Assembly (NCBI RefSeq): GCF_021134715.1
Contig: NC_060024.1
Span: 8,680,001 to 8,744,000, forward strand
DNA from: Daphnia pulex
Taxonomy: Eukaryota > Arthropoda > Branchiopoda > Diplostraca > Daphniidae
Length of the DNA: 64,000 nucleotides
Direction of reading: 5' to 3'
A program made the position numbers and the translations under genes. Positions within the stretch are counted from its first letter, which is position 1, and the number at the start of each line of letters is the position of its first letter. The notes beneath the pieces were generated by a model. That model had not been told where the DNA came from and did not search any database. It saw only the letters and a program-made list of their open reading frames with translations. Below, piece after piece: positions 1-28,241 of this stretch.

Positions 1-3000
1 CCACGACTACAACTACTGAAAAGCCAAAATCCACAACAGCTGAGTCAACAACTACAACAGCTGAGCCCACTACAAAACCAGAAGAGCCCACTACAACAAC
101 CACTGAACAGACAACGACTGTTACTGAGTCAACAACTACAACAGCTGAACCAACAACTACAACGGCTGAACCAACGACAAAAGCTGTAGAGACAACCACT
201 ACTGCAGAGCAAACAACAACTTCTGCTGAGAAAACTTCAACAACAGAAGAGCCCACGACAACACCTACTGAACAGCCAAAAACCACAACAGCTGAGCTAA
301 CTAAAACAGCTGTTGAAACAACTACTACTGCAGAGACAACGACAACTTCTGCTGATCCAACGACCACAACAGCTGAGCCCACTACAATTACAGAAGAGCC
401 CACGACCACAACTACTGAAAAGCCAACATCCACAACAGCTGATTCAACAACTTCAACAGCTGAGCCCACTACAACAACCACTGAACAGACAACGACTGTT
501 ACTGAGTCAACAACTACAACAGCTGAACCAACAACTACAACGGCTGAACCAACGACAACAGCTGTTGAGACAACCACGTCTGCAGAGAAAACGAATACTT
601 CCACTGAGCCAACTTCAACAACAGAAGAGCCCAAGACAACAACTACTGAACAGCCAACAACCACAACAGCTGAGCCCACTACAACAGCTGTTAAAACTAC
701 TACTGCAGAGCAAACAACCACAACAGCTGAGCCCACTACAACTACAGAAGAGACCACGACCACAACTACTGAAAAGCCAACATCCACAACAGCTGAGTCA
801 ACAACTACAACAGCTGAGCTCACTACAACAACCACTGAACAGACAACGACTGTTACTGAGTCAACAACAACAGCTGAACCAAAAACTACCACGGCTGAAC
901 CCACGACAACATCTGTTGAGACAACCACTACTGCAGAGCCAACGGCAAAGTCTTCTGAGCAAACTACAACTACAGAAGAGCCCACAACACAAACTACTGA
1001 ACAGCCATCAACCAAAACAGCTGAACCCACTACAACAGCTATTGAAACCACTACTACTGCTGAGCCAACGACAACTTCTGGACAGCCAACGACCACAACA
1101 GCTGAGCCTACTACAACTACAGAAAAGTACACGACTATAACTACTGAACAGCATACATCCACAACAGCTGAGTCAACAACTACAACAACTGAGCCCACTA
1201 AAACTACAGAAGAGCCCACGACAACAACCACTGAACAGACAACGACTGTTACTGAGTCAACAACTACAATAGCTGAACCAACAACTACCACGGCTGAACC
1301 CACGACAACATCTGTTGAGACAACCACTACTGCAGAGCCAACGGCAAAGTCTTCTGAGCAAACTACAACTACAGAAGAGCCCACAACACAAACTACTGAA
1401 CAGCCATCAACCAAAACAGCTGAACCCACTACAACAGCTATTGAAACCACTACTACTGCTGAGCCAACGACAACATCTGCAGAGCCAACGACCACAACCG
1501 CTGAGCCTTCTACAACTACAGAAAAGTTCACGACTACAACTACTGAACAGCATACATCCACAGCAGCTGAGTCAACAACTACAACAGCTGAGCCCACTAA
1601 AACTACAGAAGAGCCCACGACAACAACCAGTGAACAGACAACGACTGTTACTGAGTCAACAACTACAAAAGCTGAACCAACAACTACAACGGCTGAACCA
1701 ACGACAACAGCTGTTGAAACAACTACTACTGCAAAGCCAACGACCAAAACTGTTGAGCCCACTACAACTACAGAAGAGCCCACGACCACAACTACTGAAA
1801 AGCCAACATCCACAACAGTTGAGTCAACAACTACAACAGCTGAGCCCACTACAACAACCACTGAACAGACAACGACTGTTACTGAGTCAACAACTACAAC
1901 AGCTGAACCAACAACTACCACGACTGAACCCACGACAACAGCTGTTGAGACAACCACTACTGCAGAGCAAACGACAATTTCTGCTGCGCCAACTTCAACA
2001 ACAGAAGAGCCTACGACAACAACTACTGAACAGCCAACAACCACAACAGCTGAGCCCACTGCAACAGCTGTTGAAACAACTACTACTGCAGAGCCAACGA
2101 CAACTTCTGCTGAGCCAACGACCCTAACAGCTGAGCCCACGACTACAACTACTGAAAAGCCAACATCCACAACAGCTGAGTCAACAACTACAACAGCTGA
2201 GCCCACTACAAAAACAGAAGAGCCCACTACAACAACCACTGAACAGACAACGACTGTTACTGAGTCAACAACTACAACAGCTGAACCAACAACTACAACG
2301 GCTGAACCAGCGACAAAAGCTGTTGAGACAACCACTACTGCAGAGCAAACAACAACTTCTGCTGAGAAAACTTCAACAACAGACGAGCCCACGACAGCAC
2401 CTACTGAACAGCCAAAAACCACAACAGCTGAGCTCACTACAACAGTTGTTGAAACAACTACTACTGCAGAGCCAACGACAACTTTTGCTGATCCAACGAC
2501 CACAACAGATGAGCCCACTACAACTACAGAAGAGCCCACGACCACAACTACTGAAAAGCCAACATCCACAACAGCTGATTCAACAACTTCAACAGCTGAG
2601 TCCACTAAAACAACCACTGAACAGATAACGACTGTTACTGAGTCAACAACTACAACAGCTGAACCAACAACTACAACGGCTGAACCAACGACAACAGCTT
2701 TTGAGACAACCACTACTGCAGAGCAAACGACAAATTCTCCTGAGCCAACTTCAACAACAGTAGAGCCCACGACAACAACTACTGAACAGACAACGACTGT
2801 TACTGAGTCAACAACTACAACAGCTGAACCAACAACTACAACGGCTGAACCAACGACAACAGCTGTTGAGACAACCACGTCTGCAGAGCAAACGAATACT
2901 TCCACTGAGCCAACTTCAACAACAGAAGAGCCCACGACAACAACTACTGAACAGCCAACAACCAAAACAGCTGAGCCCACTACAACAGCTGTTAAAACTA

Positions 3001-6000
3001 CTACTGCAGAGCAAACAACCACAACAGCTGAGCCCACTACAACTACAGAAGAGACCACGACCACAACTACTGAAAAGCCAACATCCACAACAGCTGAGTC
3101 AACAACTACAACAGCTGAGCTCACTACAACAACCACTGAACAGACAACGACTGTTACTGAGTCAACAACAACAGCTGAACCAAAAACTACCACGGCTGAA
3201 CCCACGACAACATCTGTTGAGACAACCACTACTGCAGAGCCAACGGCAAAGTCTTCTGAGCAAACTACAACTACAGAAGAGCCCACGACACAAACTACTG
3301 AACAGCCATCAACCACAACAGCTGAACCCACTACAACAGCTATTGAAACCACTACTACTGCTGAGCCAACGACAACTTCTGGACAGCCAACGACCACAAC
3401 AGCTGAGCCTACTACAACTACAGAAAAGTACACGACTATAACTACTGAACAGCATACATCCACAACAGCTGAGTCAACAACTACAACAACTGAGCCCACT
3501 AAAACTACAGAAGAGCCCACGACAACAACCACTGAACAGACAACGACTGTTACTGAGTCAACAACTACAATAGCTGAACCAACAACTACCACGGCTGAAC
3601 CCACGACAACATCTGTTGAGACAACCACTACTGCAGAGCCAACGGCAAAGTCTTCTGAGCAAACTACAACTACAGAAGAGCCCACAACACAAACTACTGA
3701 ACAGCCATCAACCAAAACAGCTGAACCCACTACAACAGCTATTGAAACCACTACTACTGCTGAGCCAACGACAACATCTGCAGAGCCAACGACCACAACC
3801 GCTGAGCCTTCTACAACTACAGAAAAGTTCACGACTACAACTACTGAACAGCATACAACCACAGCAGCTGAGTCAACAACTAAAACAGCTGAGCCCACTA
3901 AAACTACAGAAGAGCCCACGACCACAACTACTGAAAAGCCAACATCCACAACAGTTGAGTCAACAACTACAACAGCTGAGCCCACTACAACAACCACTGA
4001 ACAGACAACGACTGTTACTGAGTCAACAACTACAACAGCTGAACCAACAACTACCACGACTGAACCCACGACAACAGCTGTTGAGACAACCACTACTGCA
4101 GAGCAAACGACAATTTCTGCTGCGCCAACTTCAACAACAGAAGAGCCTACGACAACAACTACTGAACAGCCAACAACCACAACAGCTGAGCCCACTGCAA
4201 CAGCTGTTGAAACAACTACTACTGCAGAGCCAACGACAACTTCTGCTGAGCCAACGACCCTAACAGCTGAGCCCACGACTACAACTACTGAAAAACCAAC
4301 ATCCTTAACAGCTGAGTCAACAACTACAACAGCTGAGCCCACTACAAAAACAGAAGAGCCCACTACAACAACCACTGAACAGACAACGACTGTTACTGAG
4401 TCAACAACTACAACAGCTGAACCAACAACTACAACGGCTGAACCAGCGACAAAAGCTGTTGAGACAACCACTACTGCAGAGCAAACAACAACTTCTGCTG
4501 AGAAAACTTCAACAACAGAAGAGCCCACGACAACACCTACTGAACAGCCAAAAACTACAACAGCTGAGCTCACTACAACAGCTGTTGAAACAACTACTAC
4601 TGCAGAGCCAACGACAACTTTTGCTGATCCAACGACCACAACAGATGAGCCCACTACAACTACAGAAGAGCCCACGACCACAACTACTGAAAAGCCAACA
4701 TCCACAACAGCTGATTCAACAACTTCAACAGCTGAGTCCACTAAAACAACCACTGAACAGACAACGACTGTTACTGAGTCAACAACTACAACAGCTGAAC
4801 CAACAACTACAACGGCTGAACCAACGACAACAGCTTTTGAGACAACCACTACTGCAGAGCAAACGACAACTTCTGCTGAGCCAACTTCAACAACAGAAGA
4901 GCCCACGACAACAACTACTGAACAGCCAACAACCACAACAGCTGAGCCCACTGCAACAGCTGTTGAAACAACTACTACTGCAGAGCCAACGACAACTTCT
5001 GCTGAGCCAACGACCCTAACAGCTGAGCCCACGACTACAACTACTGAAAAGCCAACATCCACAACAGCTGAGTCAACAACTACAACAGCTGAGCACACTA
5101 CAAAAACCACTGAACAGACGACGACTGTTACTGAGTCAACAACTACAACAGCTGAACCAACAACTACAACGGCTGAACCCACGACAACAACTGTTGAGAC
5201 AACCACTACTGCAGAGCAAACGACAACTTCTGCTGAGCCAACTTCAACAACAGAAGAGCCCACGACAACAACTACTGAACAGCCAACAACCACAAGAGCT
5301 GAGCCCACTACAACAGCTGTTGAAACTACTACTGCAGAGCCAACGACCACAACAGCTGAGCCCTCTACAACTACAGAAGAGCCCACGACCACAACTACTG
5401 AAAAGCCCACAACCACAACAGCTGATTCAACAACTACAACAGCTAAGCCCACTACAACAACCACTGAACAGACAACGACTGTTACTGAGTCAACAACTAA
5501 AACAGCTGAACCAACAACTACAACGGCTGAACCAACGCCAACAGCTTTTGAGACAACCACTACTGCAGAGCAAACAACAACCTCTGCTGAGCCAACATCA
5601 ACAACAGAAGAGCCCACGACAACAACTACTGAACAGCCAACAACCACAAGAGCTGAGCCCACTACAACAGCTGTTGAAACTACTACAGCGGAGCCAACGA
5701 CCACAACAGCTGAGCCCACTACAACTACAAAAGAGCCCATGACCACAACTACTGAAAAGCCAACATCCACAACAGCTGATTCAACAACTACAACAGCTGA
5801 GCCCACTACAACAACCACTGAACAGACAACGACTGTTACTGAGTCAACAACTACAACAGCTGAACCAACAACTTCAACGGCTGAACCAACAAAAACAGCT
5901 GTTGAGACAACCACTACTGCAGAGCAAACGACAACTTCTGCTGAGCCAACTTCAACAACAGAAGAGCCCACGACAACAACTACTGAACAGCCAACAACCA

Positions 6001-9000
6001 CAACAGCTGAGCCCACTACAACAGCTGTTGAAACAACTACTACTGCAGAGCCAACGACAACTTCATCTTCTGCTGATCCAACGACCACAACAGCTGAGCC
6101 CACTACAACTACAGAAGAGCCCACGACCACAACTACTGAAAAGCCAACATCCACAACAGCTGATTCAACAACTACAACAGCTGAACCAACAACTACAACG
6201 GCTGAACCAACGACAACAGCTGTTGAGACAACAACGTCTGCAGAGCAAACGACAACTTCTCCTGAGCCAACTTCAACAACAGAAGAGCCCACGACAACAA
6301 CTACTGAACAGCCAACAACCACAACAGCTGAGCCCACTACAACAGCTGTTGAAACTACTACTGCAGAGCAAACAACCACAACAGCTGAGCCCACTACAAC
6401 TACAGAAGAGACCACGACCACAAATACTGAAAAGCCAACATCCACAGCAGCTGAGTCAACAACTACAACAGCTGAGCCCACTAAAACTACAGAAGAGCCC
6501 ACGACAACAACCAATGAACAGACAACGACTTTTACTGAGTCAACAACTACAAAAGCTGAACCAACAACTACAACGGCTGAACCAACGACAACAGCTGTTG
6601 AAACAACTACTACTGCAAAGCCAACGAACACTTCTGCTGAGCCAACGACCACAGCAGCTGAGCCCAAGACTACAACTACTGAAAAGGCAACATCCACAAC
6701 AGTTGAGTCAACAACTACAACAGCTGAGCCCACTACAACAACCACTGAACAGACAACGACTGTTACTGAGTCAACAACTACAGCAGCTGAACCAACAACT
6801 ACCACGACTGAACCCACGACAACAGCTGTTGAGACAACCACTACTGCAGAGCAAACGACAATTTCTGCTGCGCCAACTTCAACTACAGAAGAGCCCACGA
6901 CAACAACCACTCTACAGGCAACCACCACAGTAGCTGAGCCCACTACAACAGCTGTTGAAACTACTACTGCAGAGCAAACGACCACAACAAGTGAGCCCAC
7001 TACAACTACAGAAGAGCCCACGACAACAACCACCGTACAAGCAACAACCACAACAGCTGAGCCCACTACAACAGCTGTTGAAACAACTACTACTGCAGAG
7101 CCAACGACAACTTCTGCTGATCCAACGACCAAAACTGTTCAGCCCACTACAACTACAGAAGAGCCCACGACCACAACTACTGAAAAGCCAACATCCACAA
7201 CAGCTGATTCAACAACTTCAACAGCTGAGCCCACTACAACAACCACTGAACAGACAACGACTGTTACTGAGTCAACAACTACAACAGCTGAACCAACAAC
7301 TACAACGGCTGAACCAACGACAACAGCTGTAGAGACAACCACTACTGCAGAGCAAACGACAACTTCTGCTGAGCCAACTTCAACAACAGAAGAGCCTACG
7401 ACAACAACTACTGAACAGCCAACAACCACAACAGCTGAGCCCACTGCAACAGCTGTTGAAACAACTACTACTGCAGAGCCAACGACAACTTCTGCTGAGC
7501 CAACGACCCTAACAGCTGAGCCCACGACTACAACTACTGAAAAGCCAACATCCACAACAGCTGAGTCAACAACTACAACAGCTGAGCACACTACAAAAAC
7601 AGAAGAGCTCACTACAACAACCACTGAACAGACAACGACTGTTACTGAGTCAACAACTACAACAGCTGAACCAACAACTACAACGGCTGAACCAGCGACA
7701 AAAGCTGTTGAAACAACCACTTCTGCAGAGCAAACAACAACTTCTGCTGAGAAAACTTCAACAACAGAAGAGCCCACGACAACACCTACTGAACAGCCAA
7801 AAACCACAACAGCTGAGCTCACTACAACAGCTGTTGAAACAACTGCTACTGCAGAGCCAACGACAACTTTTGCTGATCCAACGACCACAACAGATGAGCC
7901 CACTACAACTACAGAAGAGCCCACGACCACAACTACTGAAAAGCCAACATCCACAACAGCTGATTCAACAACTTCAACAGCTGAGTCCACTAAAACAACC
8001 ACTGAACAGACAACGACTGTTACTGAGTCAACAACTACAACAGCTGAACCAACAACTACAACGGCTGAACCAAGGACAACAGCTTTTGAGACAACCACTA
8101 CTGCAGAGCAAACGACAACTTCTGCTGAGCCAACTTCAACAACAGAAGAGCCCACGACAACAACTACTGAACAACCAACAACCACAACAGCTGAGCCCAC
8201 TGCAACAGCTGTTGAAACAACTAGTACTGCAGAGCCAACGACAACTTCTGCTGAACCAACGACCATAACAGCTGAGCCCACGACTACAACTACTCAAAAG
8301 GCAACATCCACAACAGCTGAGTCAACAACTACAACAGCTGAGTCCACTAAAACAACCACTGAACAGACAACAACTGTTACTAAGTCAACAACTACAACAG
8401 CTGAACCAACAACTACAACGGCTGAACCAACGACAACAGCTTTTGAGACAACCACTACTGCAGAGCAAACGACAACTTCTGCTGAGCCAACTTCAACAAC
8501 AGAAGAGCCCACGACAACAACTACTGAACAGCCAACAACCACAACAGCTGAGCCCACTGCAACAGCTGTTGAAACAACTAGTACTGCAGAGCCAACGACA
8601 ACTTCTGCTGAGCCAACGACCACAACAGCTGAGCCCACGACTACAACTACTCAAAAGGCAACATCCACAACAGCTGAGTCAACAACTACAACAGCTGAGC
8701 CCACTACAACAACCACTGAACAGACTACGACTGTTACTGAGTCAACAACTACAACAGCTGAACCAACAACTACTACGGCTGAACCCACGACAACAGCTGG
8801 TGAGAAAACGACTACTGCAGAGGAAACGACAACTTCTGCTGAGCCAACTTCAACTACAGAAGAGCCCACGACAACAACTACTGTACAGGCAACAACCACA
8901 CCAGCTGAGCCCACTACAACAACCACTGAACAGACGACGACTGTTACTGAGTCAACAACTACAACAGCTGAACCAACAACTACAACGGCTGAACCCACGA

Positions 9001-11340
9001 CAACAACTGTTGAGACAACCACTACTGCAGAGCAAACGACAACTTCTGCTGAGCCAACTTCAACAACAGAAGAGCCCACGACAACAACTACTGAACAGCC
9101 AACAACCACAAGAGCTGAGCCCACTACAACAGCTGTTGAAACTACTACTGCAGAGCCAACGACCACAACAGCTGAGCCCTCTACAACTACAGAAGAGCCC
9201 ACGACCACAACTACTGAAAAGCCCACATCCACAACAGCTGATTCAACAACTACAACAGCTGAGCCCACTACAACAACCACTGAACAGACAACGACTGTTA
9301 CTGAGTCAACAACTACAACAGCTGAACCAACAACTACAACGGCTGAACCAACGCCAACAGCTTTTGAGACAACCACTACTGCAGAGCAAACAACAACTTC
9401 TGCTGAGCCAACATCAACAACAGAAGAGCCCACGACAACAACTACTGAACAGCCAACCACCACAAGAGCTGAGCCCACTACAACAGCTGTTGAAACTACT
9501 ACTGCGGAGCCAACGACCACAACAGCTGAGCCCACTACAACTACAGAAGAGCCCATGACCACAACTACTGAAAAGCCAACATCCACAACAGCTGATTCAA
9601 CAACTACAACAGCTGAGCCCACTACAACAACCACTGAACAGACAACGACTGTTACTGAGTCAACAACTACAACAGCTGAACCAACAACTTCAACGGCTGA
9701 ACCAACAAAAACAGCTGTTGAGACATCCACTACTGCAGAGCAAACGACAACTTCTGCTGAGCCAACTTCAACAACAGAAGAGCCCACGACAACAACTACT
9801 GAACAGCCAACAATCACAACAGCTGAGCCCACTACAACAGCTGTTGAAACAACTACTACTGCAGAGCCAACGACAACTTCATCTTCTGCTGATCCAACGA
9901 CCACAACAGCTGAGCCCACTACAACTAAAGAAGAGCCCACGACCACAACTACTGAAAAGCCAACATCCACAACAGCTGATTCAACAACTACAACAGCTGA
10001 ACCAACAACTACAACGGCTGAACCAACGACAACAGCTGTTGAGACAACCACGTCTGCAGAGCAAACGACAACTTCTCCTGAGCCAACTTCAACAACAGAA
10101 GAGCCCACGACAACAAATACTGAACAGCCAACAACCACAACAGCTGAGCCCACTACAACAGCTGTTGAAACTACTACTGCAGAGCAAACAACCACAACAG
10201 CTGAGCCCACTACAACTACAGAAGAGACCTCGACCACAAATACTGAAAAGCCAACATCCACAACAGCTGAGTCAACAACTAAAACAGCTGAGCCCACTAC
10301 AACAACCACTGAACAGACAACGACTGTTACTGAGTCAACAACAACAGCTGAACCAAAAACTACCACGGATGAACCCACGACAACAGCTGTTGAGACAACC
10401 ACTACTGCAGAGCCAAAAACAACTTCTGCTGAGCCAACTTCAACTACAGAAGAGCCCACGACAACAACTACTGAACAGCCAACAACCACAACAGCTGAGC
10501 CCACTACAACAGCTGTTGAAACAACTACTACTGCAGAGCCAACGACAACTTCTGCTGATCCAACGACCACAACAGCTGAGCCCACTACAACAGCTGTTGA
10601 AACAACTACTACTGCAGAGCCAACGACAACTTCTGCTGATCCAACGACCACAACAGCTGAGCCCACTACAACAGCTTTTGAAACAACTACTACTGCAGAG
10701 CCAACGACAACTTCTGCTGATCCAACGACCACAACTGTTGAGCCCACTACAACTACAGAAGAGCCCACGACCACAACTACTGAAAAGCCAACATCCACAA
10801 CAGCTGATTCAACAACTTCAACAGCTGAGCCCACTACAACAACCACTGAACAGACAACGACTGTTACTGAGTCAACAACTACAACAGCTGAACCAACTAC
10901 TTCCACGTCTGAACCCACGACAACAGTTGTTGAGACAACTACTACTGCAGAGTCAACGACAACTTCTGCTGAGCCAACTACAACTACTGCTGAAACCACA
11001 ACAAGCACGGTTGAGCCTACTACCACCACAGATGAATCTATTACAACGACTACTGAGGCCACAACCACAACAATGGAACCCACTTTGAGCACAAAAGAGC
11101 ACACGACAACAACTGCTGATTTTACAACCACAACAGCTGGACCAACCTCGACAACTGTTGAGGAAACGACTACTGCAGAGCCCACAACCACAACAGCTGA
11201 AACTACTTCCACCACGAAAACTTCTGAAGGACCCACTACCACAACAGCTGAACCTACTACTACAACTGTTGAACCAACCACTACTGAAGAGATAACCACA
11301 ACTACTGCAGAACCAACATCAACTACTGCTGAATCCACAA
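1..11340 (+). repeat. Nested repeat array inside the mucin gene
   Basis: Units of about 18-24 bp, each a short Thr run ended by AEP, TEQ, TES, AVE or EEP, are arranged in higher-order modules of a few hundred bases. On top of this are kilobase-scale copies: about 541-1600 recurs near 2842-3901 (offset 2301); about 2150-2630 recurs near 4286-4766 (offset 2136, the second copy lacking about 165 bp in between) and again in part near 7535-8015 (a further offset of 3249); about 5100-6480 recurs near 8916-10296 (offset 3816). Offsets were read from matching landmarks, so block edges are approximate. All offsets are multiples of three, which keeps the frame. Confidence 0.8.
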
Positions 11341-11411
11341 CAACCATAACAACAGAACCCACGTCGAAACCGTTGAGGAAACAACTACTCAAATGCCGAC
11401 AACCCCAATAG
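3..11411 (+). CDS. Giant Thr-rich mucin-like protein, 3' part (5' end outside window)
   Basis: One reading frame stays open from base 3 to a TAG at 11409-11411, 3,802 codons. Almost every residue is Thr, with Ala, Glu, Pro and Ser; typical units are TTTTAEP, TTTTTEQ, TTTVTES, TTTAVE and TSTTEEP. This is the composition of a PTS mucin domain, expected to be densely O-glycosylated and secreted or surface-bound. No start, signal peptide, cysteine-rich, chitin-binding or membrane domain is visible; the first ATG in frame (5739) is inside the array, so the true start lies upstream. The last 14 residues abruptly become basic and Gln/Leu-rich because the frame slips near 11366 (see finding). The two other forward frames and the reverse strand are also stop-poor, which is a side effect of the repeat. 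Mucin-like character is clear; tissue and partner are unknown. Confidence 0.8.
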   Translation, partial: TTTTTEKPKSTTAESTTTTAEPTTKPEEPTTTTTEQTTTVTESTTTTAEPTTTTAEPTTKAVETTTTAEQTTTSAEKTSTTEEPTTTPTEQPKTTTAELTKTAVETTTTAETTTTSADPTTTTAEPTTITEEPTTTTTEKPTSTTADSTTSTAEPTTTTTEQTTTVTESTTTTAEPTTTTAEPTTTAVETTTSAEKTNTSTEPTSTTEEPKTTTTEQPTTTTAEPTTTAVKTTTAEQTTTTAEPTTTTEETTTTTTEKPTSTTAESTTTTAELTTTTTEQTTTVTESTTTAEPKTTTAEPTTTSVETTTTAEPTAKSSEQTTTTEEPTTQTTEQPSTKTAEPTTTAIETTTTAEPTTTSGQPTTTTAEPTTTTEKYTTITTEQHTSTTAESTTTTTEPTKTTEEPTTTTTEQTTTVTESTTTIAEPTTTTAEPTTTSVETTTTAEPTAKSSEQTTTTEEPTTQTTEQPSTKTAEPTTTAIETTTTAEPTTTSAEPTTTTAEPSTTTEKFTTTTTEQHTSTAAESTTTTAEPTKTTEEPTTTTSEQTTTVTESTTTKAEPTTTTAEPTTTAVETTTTAKPTTKTVEPTTTTEEPTTTTTEKPTSTTVESTTTTAEPTTTTTEQTTTVTESTTTTAEPTTTTTEPTTTAVETTTTAEQTTISAAPTSTTEEPTTTTTEQPTTTTAEPTATAVETTTTAEPTTTSAEPTTLTAEPTTTTTEKPTSTTAESTTTTAEPTTKTEEPTTTTTEQTTTVTESTTTTAEPTTTTAEPATKAVETTTTAEQTTTSAEKTSTTDEPTTAPTEQPKTTTAELTTTVVETTTTAEPTTTFADPTTTTDEPTTTTEEPTTTTTEKPTSTTADSTTSTAESTKTTTEQITTVTESTTTTAEPTTTTAEPTTTAFETTTTAEQTTNSPEPTSTTVEPTTTTTEQTTTVTESTTTTAEPTTTTAEPTTTAVETTTSAEQTNTSTEPTSTTEEPTTTTTEQPTTKTAEPTTTAVKTTTAEQTTTTAEPTTTTEETTTTTTEKPTSTTAESTTTTAELTTTTTEQTTTVTESTTTAEPKTTTAEPTTTSVETTTTAEPTAKSSEQTTTTEEPTTQTTEQPSTTTAEPTTTAIETTTTAEPTTTSGQPTTTTAEPTTTTEKYTTITTEQHTSTTAESTTTTTEPTKTTEEPTTTTTEQTTTVTESTTTIAEPTTTTAEPTTTSVETTTTAEPTAKSSEQTTTTEEPTTQTTEQPSTKTAEPTTTAIETTTTAEPTTTSAEPTTTTAEPSTTTEKFTTTTTEQHTTTAAESTTKTAEPTKTTEEPTTTTTEKPTSTTVESTTTTAEPTTTTTEQTTTVTESTTTTAEPTTTTTEPTTTAVETTTTAEQTTISAAPTSTTEEPTTTTTEQPTTTTAEPTATAVETTTTAEPTTTSAEPTTLTAEPTTTTTEKPTSLTAESTTTTAEPTTKTEEPTTTTTEQTTTVTESTTTTAEPTTTTAEPATKAVETTTTAEQTTTSAEKTSTTEEPTTTPTEQPKTTTAELTTTAVETTTTAEPTTTFADPTTTTDEPTTTTEEPTTTTTEKPTSTTADSTTSTAESTKTTTEQTTTVTESTTTTAEPTTTTAEPTTTAFETTTTAEQTTTSAEPTSTTEEPTTTTTEQPTTTTAEPTATAVETTTTAEPTTTSAEPTTLTAEPTTTTTEKPTSTTAESTTTTAEHTTKTTEQTTTVTESTTTTAEPTTTTAEPTTTTVETTTTAEQTTTSAEPTSTTEEPTTTTTEQPTTTRAEPTTTAVETTTAEPTTTTAEPSTTTEEPTTTTTEKPTTTTADSTTTTAKPTTTTTEQTTTVTESTTKTAEPTTTTAEPTPTAFETTTTAEQTTTSAEPTSTTEEPTTTTTEQPTTTRAEPTTTAVETTTAEPTTTTAEPTTTTKEPMTTTTEKPTSTTADSTTTTAEPTTTTTEQTTTVTESTTTTAEPTTSTAEPTKTAVETTTTAEQTTTSAEPTSTTEEPTTTTTEQPTTTTAEPTTTAVETTTTAEPTTTSSSADPTTTTAEPTTTTEEPTTTTTEKPTSTTADSTTTTAEPTTTTAEPTTTAVETTTSAEQTTTSPEPTSTTEEPTTTTTEQPTTTTAEPTTTAVETTTAEQTTTTAEPTTTTEETTTTNTEKPTSTAAESTTTTAEPTKTTEEPTTTTNEQTTTFTESTTTKAEPTTTTAEPTTTAVETTTTAKPTNTSAEPTTTAAEPKTTTTEKATSTTVESTTTTAEPTTTTTEQTTTVTESTTTAAEPTTTTTEPTTTAVETTTTAEQTTISAAPTSTTEEPTTTTTLQATTTVAEPTTTAVETTTAEQTTTTSEPTTTTEEPTTTTTVQATTTTAEPTTTAVETTTTAEPTTTSADPTTKTVQPTTTTEEPTTTTTEKPTSTTADSTTSTAEPTTTTTEQTTTVTESTTTTAEPTTTTAEPTTTAVETTTTAEQTTTSAEPTSTTEEPTTTTTEQPTTTTAEPTATAVETTTTAEPTTTSAEPTTLTAEPTTTTTEKPTSTTAESTTTTAEHTTKTEELTTTTTEQTTTVTESTTTTAEPTTTTAEPATKAVETTTSAEQTTTSAEKTSTTEEPTTTPTEQPKTTTAELTTTAVETTATAEPTTTFADPTTTTDEPTTTTEEPTTTTTEKPTSTTADSTTSTAESTKTTTEQTTTVTESTTTTAEPTTTTAEPRTTAFETTTTAEQTTTSAEPTSTTEEPTTTTTEQPTTTTAEPTATAVETTSTAEPTTTSAEPTTITAEPTTTTTQKATSTTAESTTTTAESTKTTTEQTTTVTKSTTTTAEPTTTTAEPTTTAFETTTTAEQTTTSAEPTSTTEEPTTTTTEQPTTTTAEPTATAVETTSTAEPTTTSAEPTTTTAEPTTTTTQKATSTTAESTTTTAEPTTTTTEQTTTVTESTTTTAEPTTTTAEPTTTAGEKTTTAEETTTSAEPTSTTEEPTTTTTVQATTTPAEPTTTTTEQTTTVTESTTTTAEPTTTTAEPTTTTVETTTTAEQTTTSAEPTSTTEEPTTTTTEQPTTTRAEPTTTAVETTTAEPTTTTAEPSTTTEEPTTTTTEKPTSTTADSTTTTAEPTTTTTEQTTTVTESTTTTAEPTTTTAEPTPTAFETTTTAEQTTTSAEPTSTTEEPTTTTTEQPTTTRAEPTTTAVETTTAEPTTTTAEPTTTTEEPMTTTTEKPTSTTADSTTTTAEPTTTTTEQTTTVTESTTTTAEPTTSTAEPTKTAVETSTTAEQTTTSAEPTSTTEEPTTTTTEQPTITTAEPTTTAVETTTTAEPTTTSSSADPTTTTAEPTTTKEEPTTTTTEKPTSTTADSTTTTAEPTTTTAEPTTTAVETTTSAEQTTTSPEPTSTTEEPTTTNTEQPTTTTAEPTTTAVETTTAEQTTTTAEPTTTTEETSTTNTEKPTSTTAESTTKTAEPTTTTTEQTTTVTESTTTAEPKTTTDEPTTTAVETTTTAEPKTTSAEPTSTTEEPTTTTTEQPTTTTAEPTTTAVETTTTAEPTTTSADPTTTTAEPTTTAVETTTTAEPTTTSADPTTTTAEPTTTAFETTTTAEPTTTSADPTTTTVEPTTTTEEPTTTTTEKPTSTTADSTTSTAEPTTTTTEQTTTVTESTTTTAEPTTSTSEPTTTVVETTTTAESTTTSAEPTTTTAETTTSTVEPTTTTDESITTTTEATTTTMEPTLSTKEHTTTTADFTTTTAGPTSTTVEETTTAEPTTTTAETTSTTKTSEGPTTTTAEPTTTTVEPTTTEEITTTTAEPTSTTAESTTTITTEPTSKPLRKQLLKCRQPQ
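10500..10742 (+). repeat. Three tandem 81-bp units in the mucin array
   Basis: An 81-bp unit beginning CCCACTACAACAGCT starts at 10500, 10581 and 10662. The copies are nearly identical; the third has GCTTTTGAA where the others have GCTGTTGAA. Each encodes 27 residues, so copy number can change without shifting the frame. Near-identity points to recent expansion. Confidence 0.85.
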
Positions 11412-16151: not shown

Positions 16152-17331
16152 TAAGCCTAGACGCCCAGGTAGCTATTTTACTTTAGGATGATTCCATATG
16201 AACACGACCAAAACCTGTGGCGACCATCTCACCGATTTGATCGCCATTAGGCTTTTTCGATTCAAGACAATAAAAAAAAATCCTAGAGTGAATTTGAAAA
16301 AAAGGCGCGTTCGTCTGGCGCGTTCGATTGAATTGTTTAAAAGTCTGCTTGACTGTATATAATCATTAATTTTTGTTTTAGCATATTGAAATGCGTTTAT
16401 TGGCTGATTTATCCATCAGAACATGTTGTTTTATAAATAAACAATTTTTTTAAGAACAAGTGCGACAAAATCGAAGGTTGCGCCAATAGGTGGCGCGAAA
16501 TTTAAAAAGTGAAAAAACGACTGTTTTTGATTCGATAAAAAATTAAATTAATCTCGACGCGGATTCATAAAAAGGTAGTGGAAATGTCAACGAGGCTATT
16601 AGTAATGTGTAGTAAAAATTTTAAACTCGCATCTTAAGTTTAAAATATAATTTTTCAATTTTAAAAGTACAAAAAATGCGATTTTTCTCAAAATTGACGT
16701 TTTTCAACTTAAAAAATCGGAATGATCTACCAAAAGAAATTCTTTCATTTTGTCAGGAAAGACAGCTTATTATATCTGGTTTATCACAAAAAAAGAGTTG
16801 TGTTATTTTTTGTTTAGGAAATATTTCAAACAAACGACAGCGAGTTTTTGTAATCAAAAACTATCAAATTTTCCCCTACAACAGTCAGCAAACGTTTTTT
16901 TTTTGCATTTAAGTTTCTTTACATCTCTAGAATCTATTTGAAGTAAAAATTATCATTCAGATTCGAGTTGGACAGCCAAAATATTATTAATAAATTTTAT
17001 AGAAGAGGGAGAATGGGACGAATGGGGGAGAAGAGGAAACGTGGGTCCTCTTTTTTCGTACGCCCTCCTCTCTCCCATTCGTCCCATTCTCCCCGTTCTC
17101 GCGCTAAAAAAAATGCCCAGCCATGCTGCGTTGCCAGATAAAACGGCAAAAGAAAACAGAGCCCTATAGCCAGAGTCATTTACTATGGTTACGGCTCTCA
17201 ACGTAATGGCTTCCATAAGCTTTTGGCGTTGTCTTGATTCTGTCTTCTCCCAAAAAAATCCTGTCACCTGGTGGATGTGTACCAACACCACGTGTCAGCC
17301 GCCACCGTTTACTGCCCATTTTAATTTCTAA
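16152..17331. other. AT-rich DNA without a gene
   Basis: Mostly A/T-rich spacer with short non-significant open frames. The only structured item is the hairpin at 17007-17093, listed separately. Confidence 0.4.
17007..17093. repeat. Perfect 20-bp inverted repeat (hairpin)
   Basis: GGGAGAATGGGACGAATGGG at 17007-17026 is exactly complementary to 17074-17093, with a 47-nt loop that is pyrimidine-rich. The arms extend imperfectly on the loop side (GAGAAGAGG against CCTCCTCTC). It could be a small foldback element or a hairpin RNA source. No open frame depends on it. Confidence 0.8.
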
Positions 17332-17416
17332 GTTCTAACAGAGCTATAGATACCTGGTCGGTTCATGGCTGTGTTGGCTTCCCTATCCCGGTTTCAGGGT
17401 AAACGTAAGCCGATTT
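17332..17416 (+). repeat. Left target duplication (17332-17339) and left terminal inverted repeat
   Basis: GTTCTAAC at 17332-17339 followed by AGAGCTATAGATACC and on to CGTAAGCCGATTT at 17416. Pairs with 19476-19560. Confidence 0.85.
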
Positions 17417-17598
17417 TCAGAGGGTTTTAGGGCGGAGCTTGTCAGAAGTTGTGAAGTGGAAAAATGAGACAGCGCCATCTAGTGATAAGACGTTGACTTT
17501 CAAATAATACTTTCGGCGGCCATTTTCGTGTAATATGTGAATACGGCGGCCATCATCGTGTATTACGTGAATGAATTCTAACCATAATTTCTGTAAAA

Positions 17599-18459
17599 AT
17601 GGTTGGCAGGTGTGCTGTTCCTGATTGTAAAACAACATATTACAAAGGAAATCAAAAAGAAAATGATGTTACTTTGTTTGCAGTTCCTAAAACTTCATTA
17701 TCAAAATGGCAAGAACTAATTCCATGTAGTAATTTGACGAGCACCTCACGTATTTGCTCCCGTAATGTTGACGAAAGTGACTTTAAATCAGGGATTGAAA
17801 TTTTGAACGTGTTCCATCCTTTCAAACGTAGGAATCTTAATGCTGGAGCAATTCCCAAACATTTTCTGATAAATGGTATTGATATTATATTTCCTGTATA
17901 ATCTGTAATGCACAGAAACTGAACCGTTTTCATTTTAGATACATCTATTCGACAAGCAATGCAAAATGTTGATGCTTTCAAATGGAGAAATAACCTTAAT
18001 GGTATTATTACATAATTTTATTTTGTTTAATATTAAATAACGCAATTCTTAAATATGTATTGCAGTGGAAGCTAATGCTAGCAATGCATCAGCAAGGAAA
18101 TGACCAAAAGTAGACAAAATACCTACTACGTCAAAGAGAAAAAAATTTGACAGTACAGGTATTGATAATAGTTCTCTTTATATTTTATTTTGAAGAGCAA
18201 TTGCTTTAAATTTAATCTTATAGCACCCTCCATGGAAGTTACCTCTACTATTGAAGAATCAATGGACATTCACCAGGCTGCTGAAGAAACAATTTTTGAT
18301 CCACTTCCTGATGTAATGAACCAAAACGTTGCTGTTGTCATTGAAGATTCGACAGTTACATCACCTTCTATGAAAGCAAGCTCTACTAATTTCAAGTCTA
18401 ATTTTGTGACATTTCAGTCACTAGTAACTTTATCAATGGTACCAAAGAATTGGATCTGA
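17599..18459 (+). pseudogene. Decayed THAP-domain gene inside the P-type element
   Basis: Exons that keep frame: 17599-17875, 17939-18001, 18066-18158, 18224-18459, all with GT-AG junctions. Residues 1-90 are a THAP (C2CH) zinc finger: MVGRCAVPDC gives the CX4C pair, then FAVP, W37, RICSR and the late AxPxHF-like segment AIPKHF. The third exon has an in-frame TGA at codon 12 of that exon, and the zinc-binding His normally in CSRHF is replaced (RICSRNVDESDF). Exon 4 is acidic and low-complexity. THAP domains bind the transposon's own DNA in P elements. With the lost ligand and the stop, this copy is probably nonfunctional. The transposase part is missing. Confidence 0.75.
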
Positions 18460-18551
18460 CTTGTCGTCAGATGGCGCATGTTGAAAAATCAAAAATAGAA
18501 ATTGAAAGTTAAAAAAAAATTTCTTCGCCTCCGACTTGTCGTCAGATGGCG
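18458..18551 (+). repeat. Internal 19-bp direct repeat in the P-type element
   Basis: GACTTGTCGTCAGATGGCG occurs at 18458-18476 and 18533-18551, just after the THAP stop codon. A related motif GCGCCATCT appears in opposite orientation near the left end (about 17471). Subterminal repeats in P-type elements can be transposase-binding sites; that role is inference here. Confidence 0.65.
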
Positions 18552-19475
18552 ATTGATTAACATAAATCGTTTTAGTTCATTGACAATCGTCCATTTTCAT
18601 TTTTATTAGTTCTCTAGATATTAAAAATAATTTCCAACCCCGTTAAGATCCCGTGATATGTATCCATCACTTTCACTCTTCCTAGAACGAGCGAGGGCCA
18701 TGGCTCTTGATCACGTGTTTCCACATTTTTCGAGAATAGCCACCCAGTAGTAAAAATAACACATTTATCCACTGCTGCGGAAAGCGCGGAAAAAATGAAG
18801 GGGTAATTAGTGGCGATGCGAGCGGAAAGGAGTAAAAAAAAGTAAATGACAAGGAGGTCAAGAACAGTTTAGACGGGACTGGCGGAACTGGCGTAACTGA
18901 ACTGCCGGAATGAACTCAACTGACTCCGAACGTCACTGGACTTCTTTTTACTTGCTAGTTCTATTTATTATTACATTTTGAAATGTTGAAGAATGGGGCG
19001 CATTTTTAGTAGCGTCAGCTTTTGGCCTTGGCTTTTTCATGAACAAAAGGGGGATTTTTAGAAAGGCATAAGGTTTAAATTCTTCTGGAAGTTATGGGTC
19101 TAGTTTGTGTCGGTTACTCTTGGCCTTGACTCTTTTCAATAGCGAGGGTGACTTTAGAAAGTCAAGTGTCCCTTTTTACAAGCTATGAGCCTGGCGGAAT
19201 CCTTACACTGAGAATAACACGTACCATGTCATTACATATTTTTTTTTACACAACCAAACAATAACATGTAAAAATGTGAGGACACTTAGAAAGATAGGAC
19301 ACTTAGATAAGACTTAGAGGTTTGACAGTTGGATACTTCTACCTTTTTATTATTGTTCACTTCTTGTAGAAAAGTAAGCTGTGATTGGCCAATGAGTTTT
19401 TCATATACCCTTCCTGATTGGCTGGCTTCACGTAGTAGGTGACACACTCACTAGAGGCGCTCATTCCAGTTTCCA

Positions 19476-19560
19476 AATCGGCTTACGTTTACCCTGAAAC
19501 CGGGATAGGGAAGCCAACACAGCCATGAACCGACCAGGTATCTATAGCTCTGGTTCTAAC
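19476..19560 (-). repeat. Right terminal inverted repeat and right target duplication (19553-19560)
   Basis: Reads AAATCGGCTTACG through to TATAGCTCTG, the reverse complement of the left arm, then GTTCTAAC. One extra G at 19552 before the octamer is the only end difference. Confidence 0.85.
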
Positions 19561-24575: not shown

Positions 24576-27500
24576 ATGGCGACACTTGAAAAGTCGAACA
24601 TTTGTCGCCTTTGTTCTGCAGATTTTGACAATGGAATTCATATATTTGAATCAAATAATTCTTCTTCACAACTGGATTTAATTATCAACCGATATTTACC
24701 TTTAAAGGTTAGTGAGCACTTCATGTAATTTCATAACTTAAATAGGCTTTTTATTGAGTATGTTGGCGATGCAAAGCGCCATTATTTTGAATCGTCCGAC
24801 TTCTGTGCTTCATGTTTTGTTTTATTACCCGTTTTATAGTGCTTCATGTTTTGTTTTACCAGTTTTACATACATACGTATTTTTTTTCATTTAAACAACG
24901 GTAAAATAGTTTCCTAAAATAGTATACAAATTGTTATTCTCATCATCATTTAAGTACAGCCTCATCTTGAGAAATTTTTGAAATGCATTACAGAAGGAAT
25001 CAAGTATAATCTGTGATGATATTGATTATCTATTGTAAATTATGTGTGATGTGTGTATGTTAGTGTGTGTATATTTTCAGAATGGTATAAAGAGCATTGC
25101 ATTACTTAGATCCTTGATGATGGAAAGCTACCCCGGCAGATTTGTCTATCATGCAATCAAGCAGTGAAAGATATTTCAACATTCTTTGATGTGTTGACAG
25201 CTGGACAAAGAAGATTGCGGGAACTATGGAAAGAACAGGTACAGAAGTCATACAGCCCTGCTTTGATAAAATCCTCATTTTATGACTTCAGGTTGAAGCA
25301 CTAAAGAAGGAAAAAAAGCAATTGGAAAGAGCTGAGAATTGTACAGATATAAACAGTGATGCAGAACTAATCTTAAATCTTGGTAAAAACCAAATTGATG
25401 GAAACGCACCATCTCTAATTTTTCCTACATATATTATTTTGAAAATATGCCTTACAAGCTAATCAACAACATGTCAGTTGATCTACTATGTTAATAATAC
25501 TATTGCCGTTTGTTACTTTTAAACAGATGACCAACCGCTATTCGATGGCAATCATACAATTAGCTTAGCCATGGAGGGTAGAAAAACACCACGTCGAAAA
25601 CCAGGACGTCCTCGGAAACCAAAACCAACTGAAGTTGAAGTTGAATTTCTAATTTCGGACAATCTACAAAAGTCCAACGAAGAGCAATCGGCAACAGAAG
25701 ATATCGTTGATCCCGAGCAGGTGAGCGTACGCAATAAGGTGGCCTCTATTTTAAAATCAAATGTAGATAAGCTTGAGGCATAGGATTTTAATACGTTTAG
25801 TGTAACTGTTTACAACTGGGAGAGTTACAACTATGTTTTTAAATTATCGTTTTAGGCTCTGGAACTGATGTTTAAAGAAGCGGAAGAAAAACGACTTACT
25901 TCAGGAGAACTTTCTCGCATGCGCCGTCGCCGACGACTACCACAAAGGTTTTGAATGTTTTTAAGACTTGTCATACATGCAGTATTTAATTCGCAAGTTC
26001 CAATATCGAACAGATTTCCAGGTGAAGTACAAGGGAAAGAATTAGAAGCAATCTTAAAAGACGAGGGGGTGATTGAACCAGATGAAGAAATTGAAGAAAA
26101 TCTTGCTGAAGAAGAAGACGCTGAAATTGAAGCAATTGATCTTCAGTTGAATCGAGAAAACCAAGATGAAATTCAAAGAGAGAGCGACGAAGAAAATGCC
26201 ATTAGTACGATTGCGGTGAGGGACAATTTTTAAGTTTTTACGCCAAGATACGGATCTGTAGTTAATTTACAGTGTATGGATAACAAGAAAGTCTTCTAAC
26301 ATGTGTTTAATTTACAGGAAGAAAGTGAAGGCGAAAGTTCAGTGGCCCGCAGTCATATGCGCAAAAATACGCCGAAACCAAAGATGAAGGGTAAAGTTGG
26401 CCGACCCAAGAAGCGACGCTTTATATGTGAATATTGCGGAAAGTCTTTCCTCCATTCTGGGCATTTTGAACACCACATTCGCACTCGACATGAACAATCC
26501 CAGTTTGTATGCCTGACGTGTAACGAAACGTACGTTACAAAGGAAGAACTAGTGTTGCACCAAAATGAAGTCAAACATACAGGAGAAGGAATTTCGGAAG
26601 TTCAGAACATGGACGAAATTGACGGAGATTTAGATGAGTCTCAGGTTAGATTCCACAACATTTTCAGTTTTAGTGACAGTTAAGTTGTATATCAATCTTG
26701 AAATACAAAACAGGGCACAGAATTTAAATGCGCATCATGCGAAGTAGTTTTCCCGCAGCAATCTGCCCTGACGAATCACATAGTGGAACAACACATCACG
26801 GAAAACAACAACGTGTGTGATGTATGTGGCAAGACGTTCTCGCACCCGAGCTCGGTCGTCTACCATAAAGAGGTAATTTGTGATCTCTGTTAATTCTCGT
26901 ACATTACTGCCAAGGTCGCGTTATTTATTCACAGGTGGTTCATAGTAAAAGTGCGTATGTGTGTAAAATTTGCAACAAGGGCTTTAAACATAAGCAGCTT
27001 CTGCAACGACATAGTTTGGTGCATTCAGATGATCGACCTTTTGTATGCGATGTTTGCGGCGCTACATTCAAGACTCGGGCGAATTTATACAATCATAGTA
27101 ATATTCACAGTGAAGAGAAGCCTTACCAGTGCACATTTTGCGACGCCAAGTTTTCGCATAAAACTTCTTTGATCCTACACACTCGATGGCACACCGGTGA
27201 AAAGCCATACGCGTGTAAATTCTGCGACAAGAGCTTTTCCCAGGTATTTGTAAATAAATGCGCAGAAATGTCATCTGTTGTCTAATTCCCTCATTGGTCC
27301 AGGGAGGAAATCTTCAAGAGCATATGCGAATTCACACAGGAGAGAAACCCTTTGGCTGTGATGTTTGTTCGAAACGTTTCACAACATCTTCACAGCATCG
27401 GTTACACATGAAGGTGAGAATAATTATTTATCATTCTTTTGAATCTGATCTTTATGCCACTATTTTTTTATCGAATGGGTTCAGAGACACACCGGGGAGC

Positions 27501-28241
27501 GACCGTGGAAATGTGAATACTGCGGGAAAGATTTTCTTCACAAAGATTCCTGGAAGTGTCACCTTCGTCGGCATCGTGGTGAAAAGCCCTTCTCTTGCCC
27601 TAACTGCCCTCGGACATTCACAGAACAATGGGCACTTAAAAAACACGTCCGACTTCACACCGGTAAACAATTGATCACAAAAAGTTAAATACTTGTATTT
27701 ACGCTTTTATTTTGCAGGAGAGAAACCTTACTCATGCGACATTTGCAACAAGGCCTTCTCTGACTTGTCTAATCTACAGAAACACAAAAAGACTCACAAG
27801 AATCAGCAGTCATCAATGGATGACGTTACTATCACAACGGCTGCTTCCGCCTCGAACGATGAATCGGAAAATGCACTCTCTGCCCTGACTGATGGACAAC
27901 ACATCTTTTACGTGACAACTGATCAAACGCAATTAGTACGATTAATTAGTACGATTGGTTCAGAAGAGAGCGGCTTGATGTCAGATGGCACTATTCAGTA
28001 TTCATCCATGATGGAAAATGGAGTTGCTATGGTACAACTGGACGAAGAAGAATCACGGCATTTAAATGTCGAATTGCAAACAGATCAGACTGATGATTCT
28101 GAAAGCGTCTTGGCCATTGTTGGAGATGATAACACCGACCAAGTGCGTCAAGCTATCGAAATCACTACTGAAGACGGTCGGCGTGTCACTCTGCTCATCC
28201 CGGCCAATGGTGATTCATGTGAAATAGCTCCTGACTATTAA
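24576..28241 (+). CDS. ZAD domain, AT-hook and 12-finger C2H2 zinc finger protein
   Basis: Twelve exons keep frame to 815 residues: 24576-24707, 25110-25238, 25292-25382, 25527-25720, 25856-25947, 26014-26215, 26318-26644, 26714-26872, 26935-27243, 27303-27413, 27485-27662, 27718-28241. Residues 9-70 form a ZAD (zf-AD) with ICRLC and ICLSC pairs, the arthropod dimerisation module. Two AT-hook-like stretches follow: [12 protein letters not shown] and [11 protein letters not shown]. An acidic linker separates them. Twelve C2H2 fingers then run from [10 protein letters not shown] to [10 protein letters not shown], many joined by TGEKPY/F linkers. The C-terminus (about 150 residues) is acidic and Ser/Thr-rich, perhaps an activation domain. 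It should be a nuclear DNA-binding regulator; targets are unknown. Exon 2 is placed at ACTTAG|ATC because other acceptors leave a stop. Confidence 0.88.

Follow-up and report, generated by a model that had tools for sequence, protein, structure and literature searches.

A non-autonomous P-superfamily transposon in Daphnia pulex and its sister copies with host gene segments

Introduction

In a 64,000-nucleotide stretch of the Daphnia pulex genome (NC_060024.1, positions 8,680,001 to 8,744,000; hereafter the window), a short insertion is bounded by long inverted repeats and contains a THAP-encoding frame. A preliminary description of the sequence assigned it to the P superfamily and noted that no transposase is encoded inside. 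The locus raises three questions: to which family the insertion belongs, what could have moved it, and where the sequence between its ends came from. We addressed them by comparing the insertion with related copies throughout the genome.

Results

Structure of the window insertion

The window element is a P-type insertion of 2,214 bp (C8:8697339-8699552), cleanly inserted yet crippled (Table 1). Its terminal inverted repeats form a single long pair and are complementary at 78 of 78 nt. The CAGAGC..GCTCTG ends are found in the window copy and in most other copies examined. The preliminary description correctly recognized long matching repeats but placed the left start at 17340, one base too far to the right. 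This base also bears on the target-site duplication, which had been described as 8 bp long. The octamer GTTCTAAC is present on both sides, but the last C of its left copy is base 1 of the repeat. Therefore, the duplication in the window is GTTCTAA, 7 bp. Beyond it, the next outward base is A at the left and C at the right, and this difference at the eighth flanking position rules out an 8-bp duplication. The matching arms had also been taken to indicate a young insertion. The arms are indeed identical, but the argument for youth is weak, since zero differences over 78 sites still permit a divergence of a few per cent.

Table 1. Positions of the features of the element within the window.
Feature	Position	Strand	Details
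Left target-site duplication	17332..17338	.	GTTCTAA, 7 bp
Left terminal inverted repeat	17339..17416	+	78 nt, starts CAGAGC
5' P-family part	17339..18458	+	Nt 1-1120 of the element, of which nt 1-1058 match the 5,022-bp relative at 93.5%
THAP exon open frame	17599..17901	+	100 aa; zinc-ligand His to Asn in the window copy; PF05485, E 3.8e-9
C8-matching piece	18455..18554	+	100 nt, 94% to C8:5388873-5388972 (a stretch ~2 kb from a related LTR piece)
Retrotransposon-related piece	18576..18859	+	94% to C8:5449303-5449591
LTR piece	18860..19207	+	348 nt, 95% to C8:5451414-5451760; stops exactly at the LTR terminus ..TTACA
3' P-family part	19207..19552	+	Nt 1869-2214 of the element, matching the 5,022-bp relative at 91%
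Right terminal inverted repeat	19475..19552	-	78 nt, finishes GCTCTG
Right target-site duplication	19553..19559	.	GTTCTAA, 7 bp

None of the 77 PF21787 matches in the genome lies within the element, in agreement with the earlier observation that it encodes no transposase; judged by this profile, the copy has no transposase of its own and is not autonomous. By itself, the window copy is an ordinary non-autonomous P-superfamily copy.

The THAP gene reported inside the element is real as a reading frame, supported by its Pfam match (Table 1), but is a single damaged exon and not an intact gene. The window copy reads ICSRNV, and every other in-frame copy that spans this site has His (RHF or HHF). 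With CSRNV in place of the His, the histidine of the C2CH set is lost and the zinc site of the window copy is broken. THAP is also encoded in a packed sister copy, L009 (1.1e-12), and in the longer relative L053 (8.7e-14).

A relative that encodes a P-type transposase

The preliminary description had proposed a search for full-length relatives with an RNase H-like transposase. One relative with such domains is L053 (C7:3952755-3957776). This copy is 5,022 bp long, has the same ends as the window element and is flanked by the 7-bp duplication TAAAAGG. It is the only one of its length among the listed pairs of ends (see below). Its identity to the window element is 93.5% over the first 1,058 nt and 91% over the last 346, with ~78 nt matched at both ends. 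In addition to THAP, the L053 frames match PF21787 (1e-20) and PF21788 (3.7e-7) in Pfam, which are the RNase H-like and GTP-binding-insertion segments of P transposase. A PDB search matched L053 to the Drosophila P transposase structure 6p5a (8.6e-10), and the alignment pairs MWDE with AFDE, VCDG with VSDL and DVPH with DTPH. We take the first two aligned positions (D-E and D) to be catalytic residues. The D(2)H motif of the third pair is described in PMC4168063. PDB and Pfam searches with the last two long L053 frames returned nothing significant, and neither a third catalytic residue (Glu) nor a C-terminal RNase H domain was found.

Since L053 has the same ends and encodes segments of P transposase, the family belongs to the P superfamily, as initially assigned, and the window copy is a non-autonomous derivative. 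THAP in L053 lies upstream of the RNase H frames, so the THAP exon in the window is a remnant after internal loss, and a family that carries THAP as a passenger, one of two earlier suggestions, is not needed. The other suggestion was that an active relative supplies the transposase. A transposase-bearing relative does exist; recent movement of the family is only suggested, by the sister copies described below.

The frame after the THAP exon of L053 (L053:6397-7641, minus strand) holds a unit of ~45 aa (~135 nt) in four near-identical copies, and the unit number may differ between family members, to judge from repeated matches in L047. Genome-wide, 137 THAP and 77 P-type RNase H matches suggest additional P families. 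At C2:9419174-9420748, THAP and P-type RNase H matches both fall in one 829-codon open frame, which may represent a P transposase without introns or a domesticated gene.

Copies and target duplications across the genome

The 77-nt arm has at least 42 matches in the genome (40 of 193 first-look candidates scored). A 25-mer pattern of the tip, with up to 3 mismatches allowed, occurs at 160 genome sites (78 forward, 82 reverse), and the reversed control gave 0 and 0. The arms are thus present elsewhere in the genome, well beyond chance. Our pairing census was built on the 100 of 160 tip sites that were listed. They form 38 neighbouring convergent pairs. Fourteen measure 283-291 bp and twelve 1.66-1.74 kb; the remaining 12 include the window element (2,214 bp) and the 5,022-bp copy. 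A listed pair of 4,885 bp is formed by the ends of two nested copies joined together. We examined 24 loci around arm matches, 20 and a further 8 around THAP, capture and transposase matches, and 1 more.

Among 33 copies examined with both ends in one locus, an exact 7-bp target duplication is present in 28 and an exact 8-bp one in three. It is absent in two, L014 and, under the bounds used, L052; a 7-bp duplication is obtained for L052 if its altered right end base is counted as part of the element. Two further copies with their ends in separate loci (L034/L056 and the outer copy around L012/L040) have no duplication by eye. The duplications found at other copies confirm the expectation that such flanking repeats recur, with a 7- or 8-mer particular to each copy. 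The 28 targets of 7 bp form a loose palindrome. When symmetrised, 87% have a pyrimidine at position 2, and so 87% have a purine at position 6, giving the loose consensus V-Y-N-N-N-R-B.

L010 and L020 are identical over 1,728 bp and L019 is 99.8% identical, and the three have different duplications. Such near-identity at sites whose duplications differ is suggestive of recent movement within the family. The packed copy L012 (3,116 bp) inserted within the terminal repeat of another copy (L012 with L040, C7:1474233-1479162). Joining its flanks and removing one 7-mer restores the 78-nt repeat at 95%, which provides a related empty site.

Some copies have complex structures. In L044 (C10:11207897-11211435), one copy lies within another family member, and the two have separate 7-bp duplications. 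In L017 (C3:11859307-11866555), a copy of the 1.7-kb type is interrupted by an insertion of ~5.5 kb. L014 (C6:6595980-6599223; 3,244 bp) is 99.8% identical to L009 and has no target duplication, and its flanks are possibly reshuffled.

Middle of the window copy

Between its two P-family parts, the window copy matches parts of LTR retrotransposons on C8 (Table 1). The segment C8:5449303-5449591 lies in a likely LTR retrotransposon, with an LTR on one side and, on the other, a frame resembling gag (zinc knuckle E 0.0019, below the Pfam cut-off). The LTRs of this reference retrotransposon match over 599 columns at 94%; they start with TG, finish with CA and are bordered on both outer sides by CTCG. 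A host gene in the middle of the window copy was rejected because the pieces match retrotransposon parts. Pack-TIRs are defined by host DNA inside the TIRs, and the window copy, with its LTR-retrotransposon middle, is not one of them.

An OSCP and NPA1/URB1-type segment in eight sister copies

A host segment that retains introns and reaches 2.4 kb at its longest is present in eight sister copies. It consists of OSCP exons 2-5 and the end of an NPA1/URB1-type gene. Six of the copies are 3,244 bp (L009, L013 and L014), 3,245 bp (L016) and 3,116 or 3,114 bp (L012 and L021) long; the remaining two, L033 and L034/L056, have a shortened host segment that is 97.8% identical to the donor. BLAST alignments of L034 give 97.8% over 1,361 columns and 98.6% over 146 columns, and a figure of 81.7% for this copy results from alignment across an insertion and is not a true distance. 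The captured minus strand encodes the ATP synthase OSCP (PF00213, 3.8e-19; PDB 9b0x, 1.2e-22), and the plus strand has a 291-aa frame that is part of the NPA1/URB1-type gene. No Pfam family or PDB structure matched the 291-aa passenger frame, and no PDB structure matched a 743-aa donor frame. We named this gene after an upstream exon in the donor that has an Npa1 domain (PF11707, 1e-37); URB1 is the name that we presume for it.

The donor is the locus L057 on C11. Element nt 596-2956 match L057:4997-7372 contiguously at 97.4% counting gaps, and L009 is identical to L057 at 98.1% of aligned sites (45 of 2,358 different). L057 has no match to the window element and no P ends. Its OSCP gene is complete, with five exons encoding 209 aa (exon limits assigned manually in this analysis). 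The captured part comprises exons 2-5 with the intervening introns, and exon 1 is present only in the donor.

At the right junction, a 27-nt filler is exact in seven of the eight copies and has lost 6 nt in L016. It is absent at the donor and at 7 other loci tried, where at least 9 mismatches were found. This common filler points to the uptake of the OSCP segment by one capture. The left junction differs between the L009-type copies and L033/L034, suggesting that the history includes later deletions or conversion, or more than one simple event. Small deletions at 6615 and 7044 (donor numbering) show conflicting patterns of sharing among the copies. The eight copies are distributed over seven contigs. 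Duplications flank six of them, with a different sequence in each case, and L014 and L034 have none. The 3,244-bp group is 99.3-99.8% identical to L009 over whole elements.

Every one of the eight copies has a stop or a frame-shifting indel within OSCP exons 2-5, with an exon-3 gap in L033 and L034, and a function of the captured OSCP is rejected on this basis. Differences between donor and copies amount to 0.9-1.7% in coding and 2.9-4.0% in non-coding sequence (7 copies, L034 left out). In the one comparison of L013 with L009, the NPA1/URB1-type frame has four extra replacements and one extra silent change. Since these copy-private changes look unconstrained, the deficit of coding differences likely reflects constraint on the parent gene.

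A NUDT9-type segment

L015 (1,849 bp) carries a different host segment. Its nt 438-1579 match L036:1486-2655 on C10 at 90%, spanning three exon stretches and the DNA between them. L036 encodes a NUDT9-type ADP-ribose pyrophosphatase (PDB 1q33, 2.4e-21), and the two NUDT9-type frames matched no Pfam family. Nothing in the donor stretch matches the window element. In BLAST coordinates, donor and P sequence overlap by 4 nt at the right junction of L015 (donor to 1579, P from 1576), and 4 nt at the left junction are assigned to neither P nor donor. L024 has 591 nt in common with the right part of L015, at 98%. The L009-type and L015 copies have host DNA inside their TIRs and parents, L057 and L036, without the transposon, as is characteristic of Pack-TIRs.

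Discussion

Combining the structures of the copies and their donors provides a likely history of the family. The family transposase, whose domains are found in the 5,022-bp copy on C7, would bind the common 78-nt ends and move the element, leaving 7-bp and sometimes 8-bp duplications. The excision gap may sometimes be repaired incompletely or from an ectopic template. In the products of such repair, the retained P sequence would amount to ~0.4-1.6 kb at the 5' side and 0.24-0.37 kb at the 3' side; the part between would be either simply deleted or replaced by host DNA, and the packed copies could afterwards transpose and multiply. For the host-gene middles, ectopic template switching during gap repair followed by transposition is the best mechanism, which would make these copies a multicopy 'Pack-TIR' of the P superfamily. 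We favour it because it accounts for the P ends, the intron-containing passengers, the filler and overlap at the junctions, and the spread with new duplications. For the first step, the data agree with this route, which Quesneville et al. proposed for Anopheles, as well as with that of Tan et al. We hold the scenario as a whole, with a non-autonomous P copy in the window, a family transposase, packing by gap repair and a nested-LTR middle, with considerable confidence.

The middle of the window copy most likely arose when an LTR retrotransposon inserted into the element and subsequent deletions took away its other end along with P sequence. Alternatively, the stretch 18455-19207 may be retrotransposon DNA captured by template switching in gap repair. 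Sister copies of the same family take up foreign middles, and the pieces match C8 separately at 5.388, 5.449 and 5.451 Mb, as in a patchwork. We see such a capture as possible but distinctly less likely, since the right boundary of the window piece is the LTR terminus (19207), which is predicted by insertion and not by template switching. Nested insertion is therefore preferred for the middle. Another alternative concerns the THAP exon. KP-type P elements in Drosophila are truncated repressors that regulate the P family. By analogy, truncated THAP-only copies could have been retained because they give a repressor of this family. The exon is kept in many packed or deleted copies, several of which are open and have the C2CH residues, and the ends alone need less sequence, as seen in four ~284-bp copies that share ~144 and 123 nt with the ends of the window element. 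However, the window copy has no zinc histidine, and the THAP exon contains a stop in L018 and in ten copies of the ~1.7-kb group shown (L042, L043, L044 (two), L045, L046 and L048-L051). In L015 it is truncated and has a stop as well, and the 14 listed pairs of 283-291 bp are too short for it. We therefore find a repressor role unlikely and regard the window exon as a remnant of internal loss.

Could the foreign middles be ancestral cargo genes of the family instead of captures? Their presence in multiple, near-identical copies inside intact ends would agree with this. However, the donor has gene parts beyond the captured stretch (OSCP exon 1 and the Npa1 exon) and does not match the window element, the 5,022-bp relative has no such cargo, and the OSCP frame is damaged in 8 of 8 copies. 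An ancestral origin is thus highly improbable, and for OSCP and NPA1/URB1 we reject it as largely refuted by the donor locus and the copy damage. Capture from the host remains the preferred origin of these middles. Even less probable is membership of a different superfamily that also has long repeats and duplications of 7-8 bp, such as hAT, with an incidental THAP similarity. Duplication length alone cannot separate these superfamilies, but L053 shares the ends of the element, encodes THAP, PF21787 and PF21788, and has a structural match in the Drosophila P transposase. On these Pfam domains and the 6p5a match, hAT membership is rejected and the family is placed in the P superfamily.

Within the P superfamily, Galileo of Drosophila is described as having mostly 7-bp duplications (8 bp in three D. 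willistoni copies), numerous non-autonomous copies of varying structure, and THAP together with a P-type transposase (PMC4168063). All of these resemble the present family, and a 7-bp duplication is therefore in keeping with the P superfamily, if not with its canonical 8-bp P element. Galileo is set apart by long Foldback-like repeats and a GTATTAC target, whereas the target here is loose and the repeats are 78 nt in the window copy and ~78 nt in the 5,022-bp copy. Canonical P elements, as described for Anopheles AgaP, zebrafish Pdre2 and Drosophila P, also combine THAP with a P-type RNase H transposase and have short non-autonomous derivatives. In contrast to the present family, they make 8-bp duplications (PMC1562414, PMC10983969), a length found in 3 of our 33 copies and not in the window copy, which has 7. 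Their terminal repeats are given as 27-31 bp in Anopheles P and 13 bp in Pdre2, compared with 78 nt here (PMC1562414, PMC10983969).

P ends around non-P internal sequence are known from the P-MITEs of Anopheles, for which Quesneville et al. proposed and favoured ectopic gap repair (PMC1562414). The source of the internal sequence is left open in that account, whereas two donor loci are identified here. Animal Pack-TIRs are likewise reported to have host DNA between TIR ends and microhomology or short insertions at their junctions, and multicopy ones have distinct duplications and distant parents (PMC8277862). That survey counts 370 Pack-TIRs in 100 genomes, assigned to hAT (208), TcMariner (115) and others (47), the last of which may include P members, and cites P-element capture from two Drosophila studies with induced transposase (PMC8277862). 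Turmoil-1 of C. elegans is another animal transposable element with two acquired protein-coding sequences, which, unlike those described here, sit in its terminal repeats (PMC2572040). No P-superfamily Pack-TIR family came up in literature searches judged by titles and the openings of abstracts. The present family is a multicopy, gene-packing P-type family with traced parents, and we do not claim that it is the first.

For the non-P middles of this family, parents are identified at ~98% and ~90% identity, introns are kept and the junctions are readable. One packed form occurs at eight places, whereas the survey of 100 genomes counted only four multicopy Pack-TIRs (PMC8277862). Both the act of capture and the subsequent spread can thus be tested in one small genome in which a transposase-bearing relative is present. 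A more far-reaching idea is that the family repeatedly packs host housekeeping genes and that the OSCP and NPA1/URB1-type passengers are not silent, with an antisense OSCP RNA read from the THAP side, so that small RNAs against the transposon could also affect the parent gene. We consider this a long shot; if true, P transposition would alter, in trans, the wiring of nuclear genes that serve mitochondria and ribosomes.

Other features of the window

A 36-nt inverted repeat, 89% complementary with a 27-nt spacer, is located at 17001-17099, 240 nt to the left of the element. A very long repetitive open frame (3-11408; 3,802 codons) with a Thr-rich start reaches the window edge, and a 921-codon open frame on the opposite strand overlaps part of it. 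At 26300-28238, the frames resemble a C2H2 zinc-finger gene, as judged by eye.
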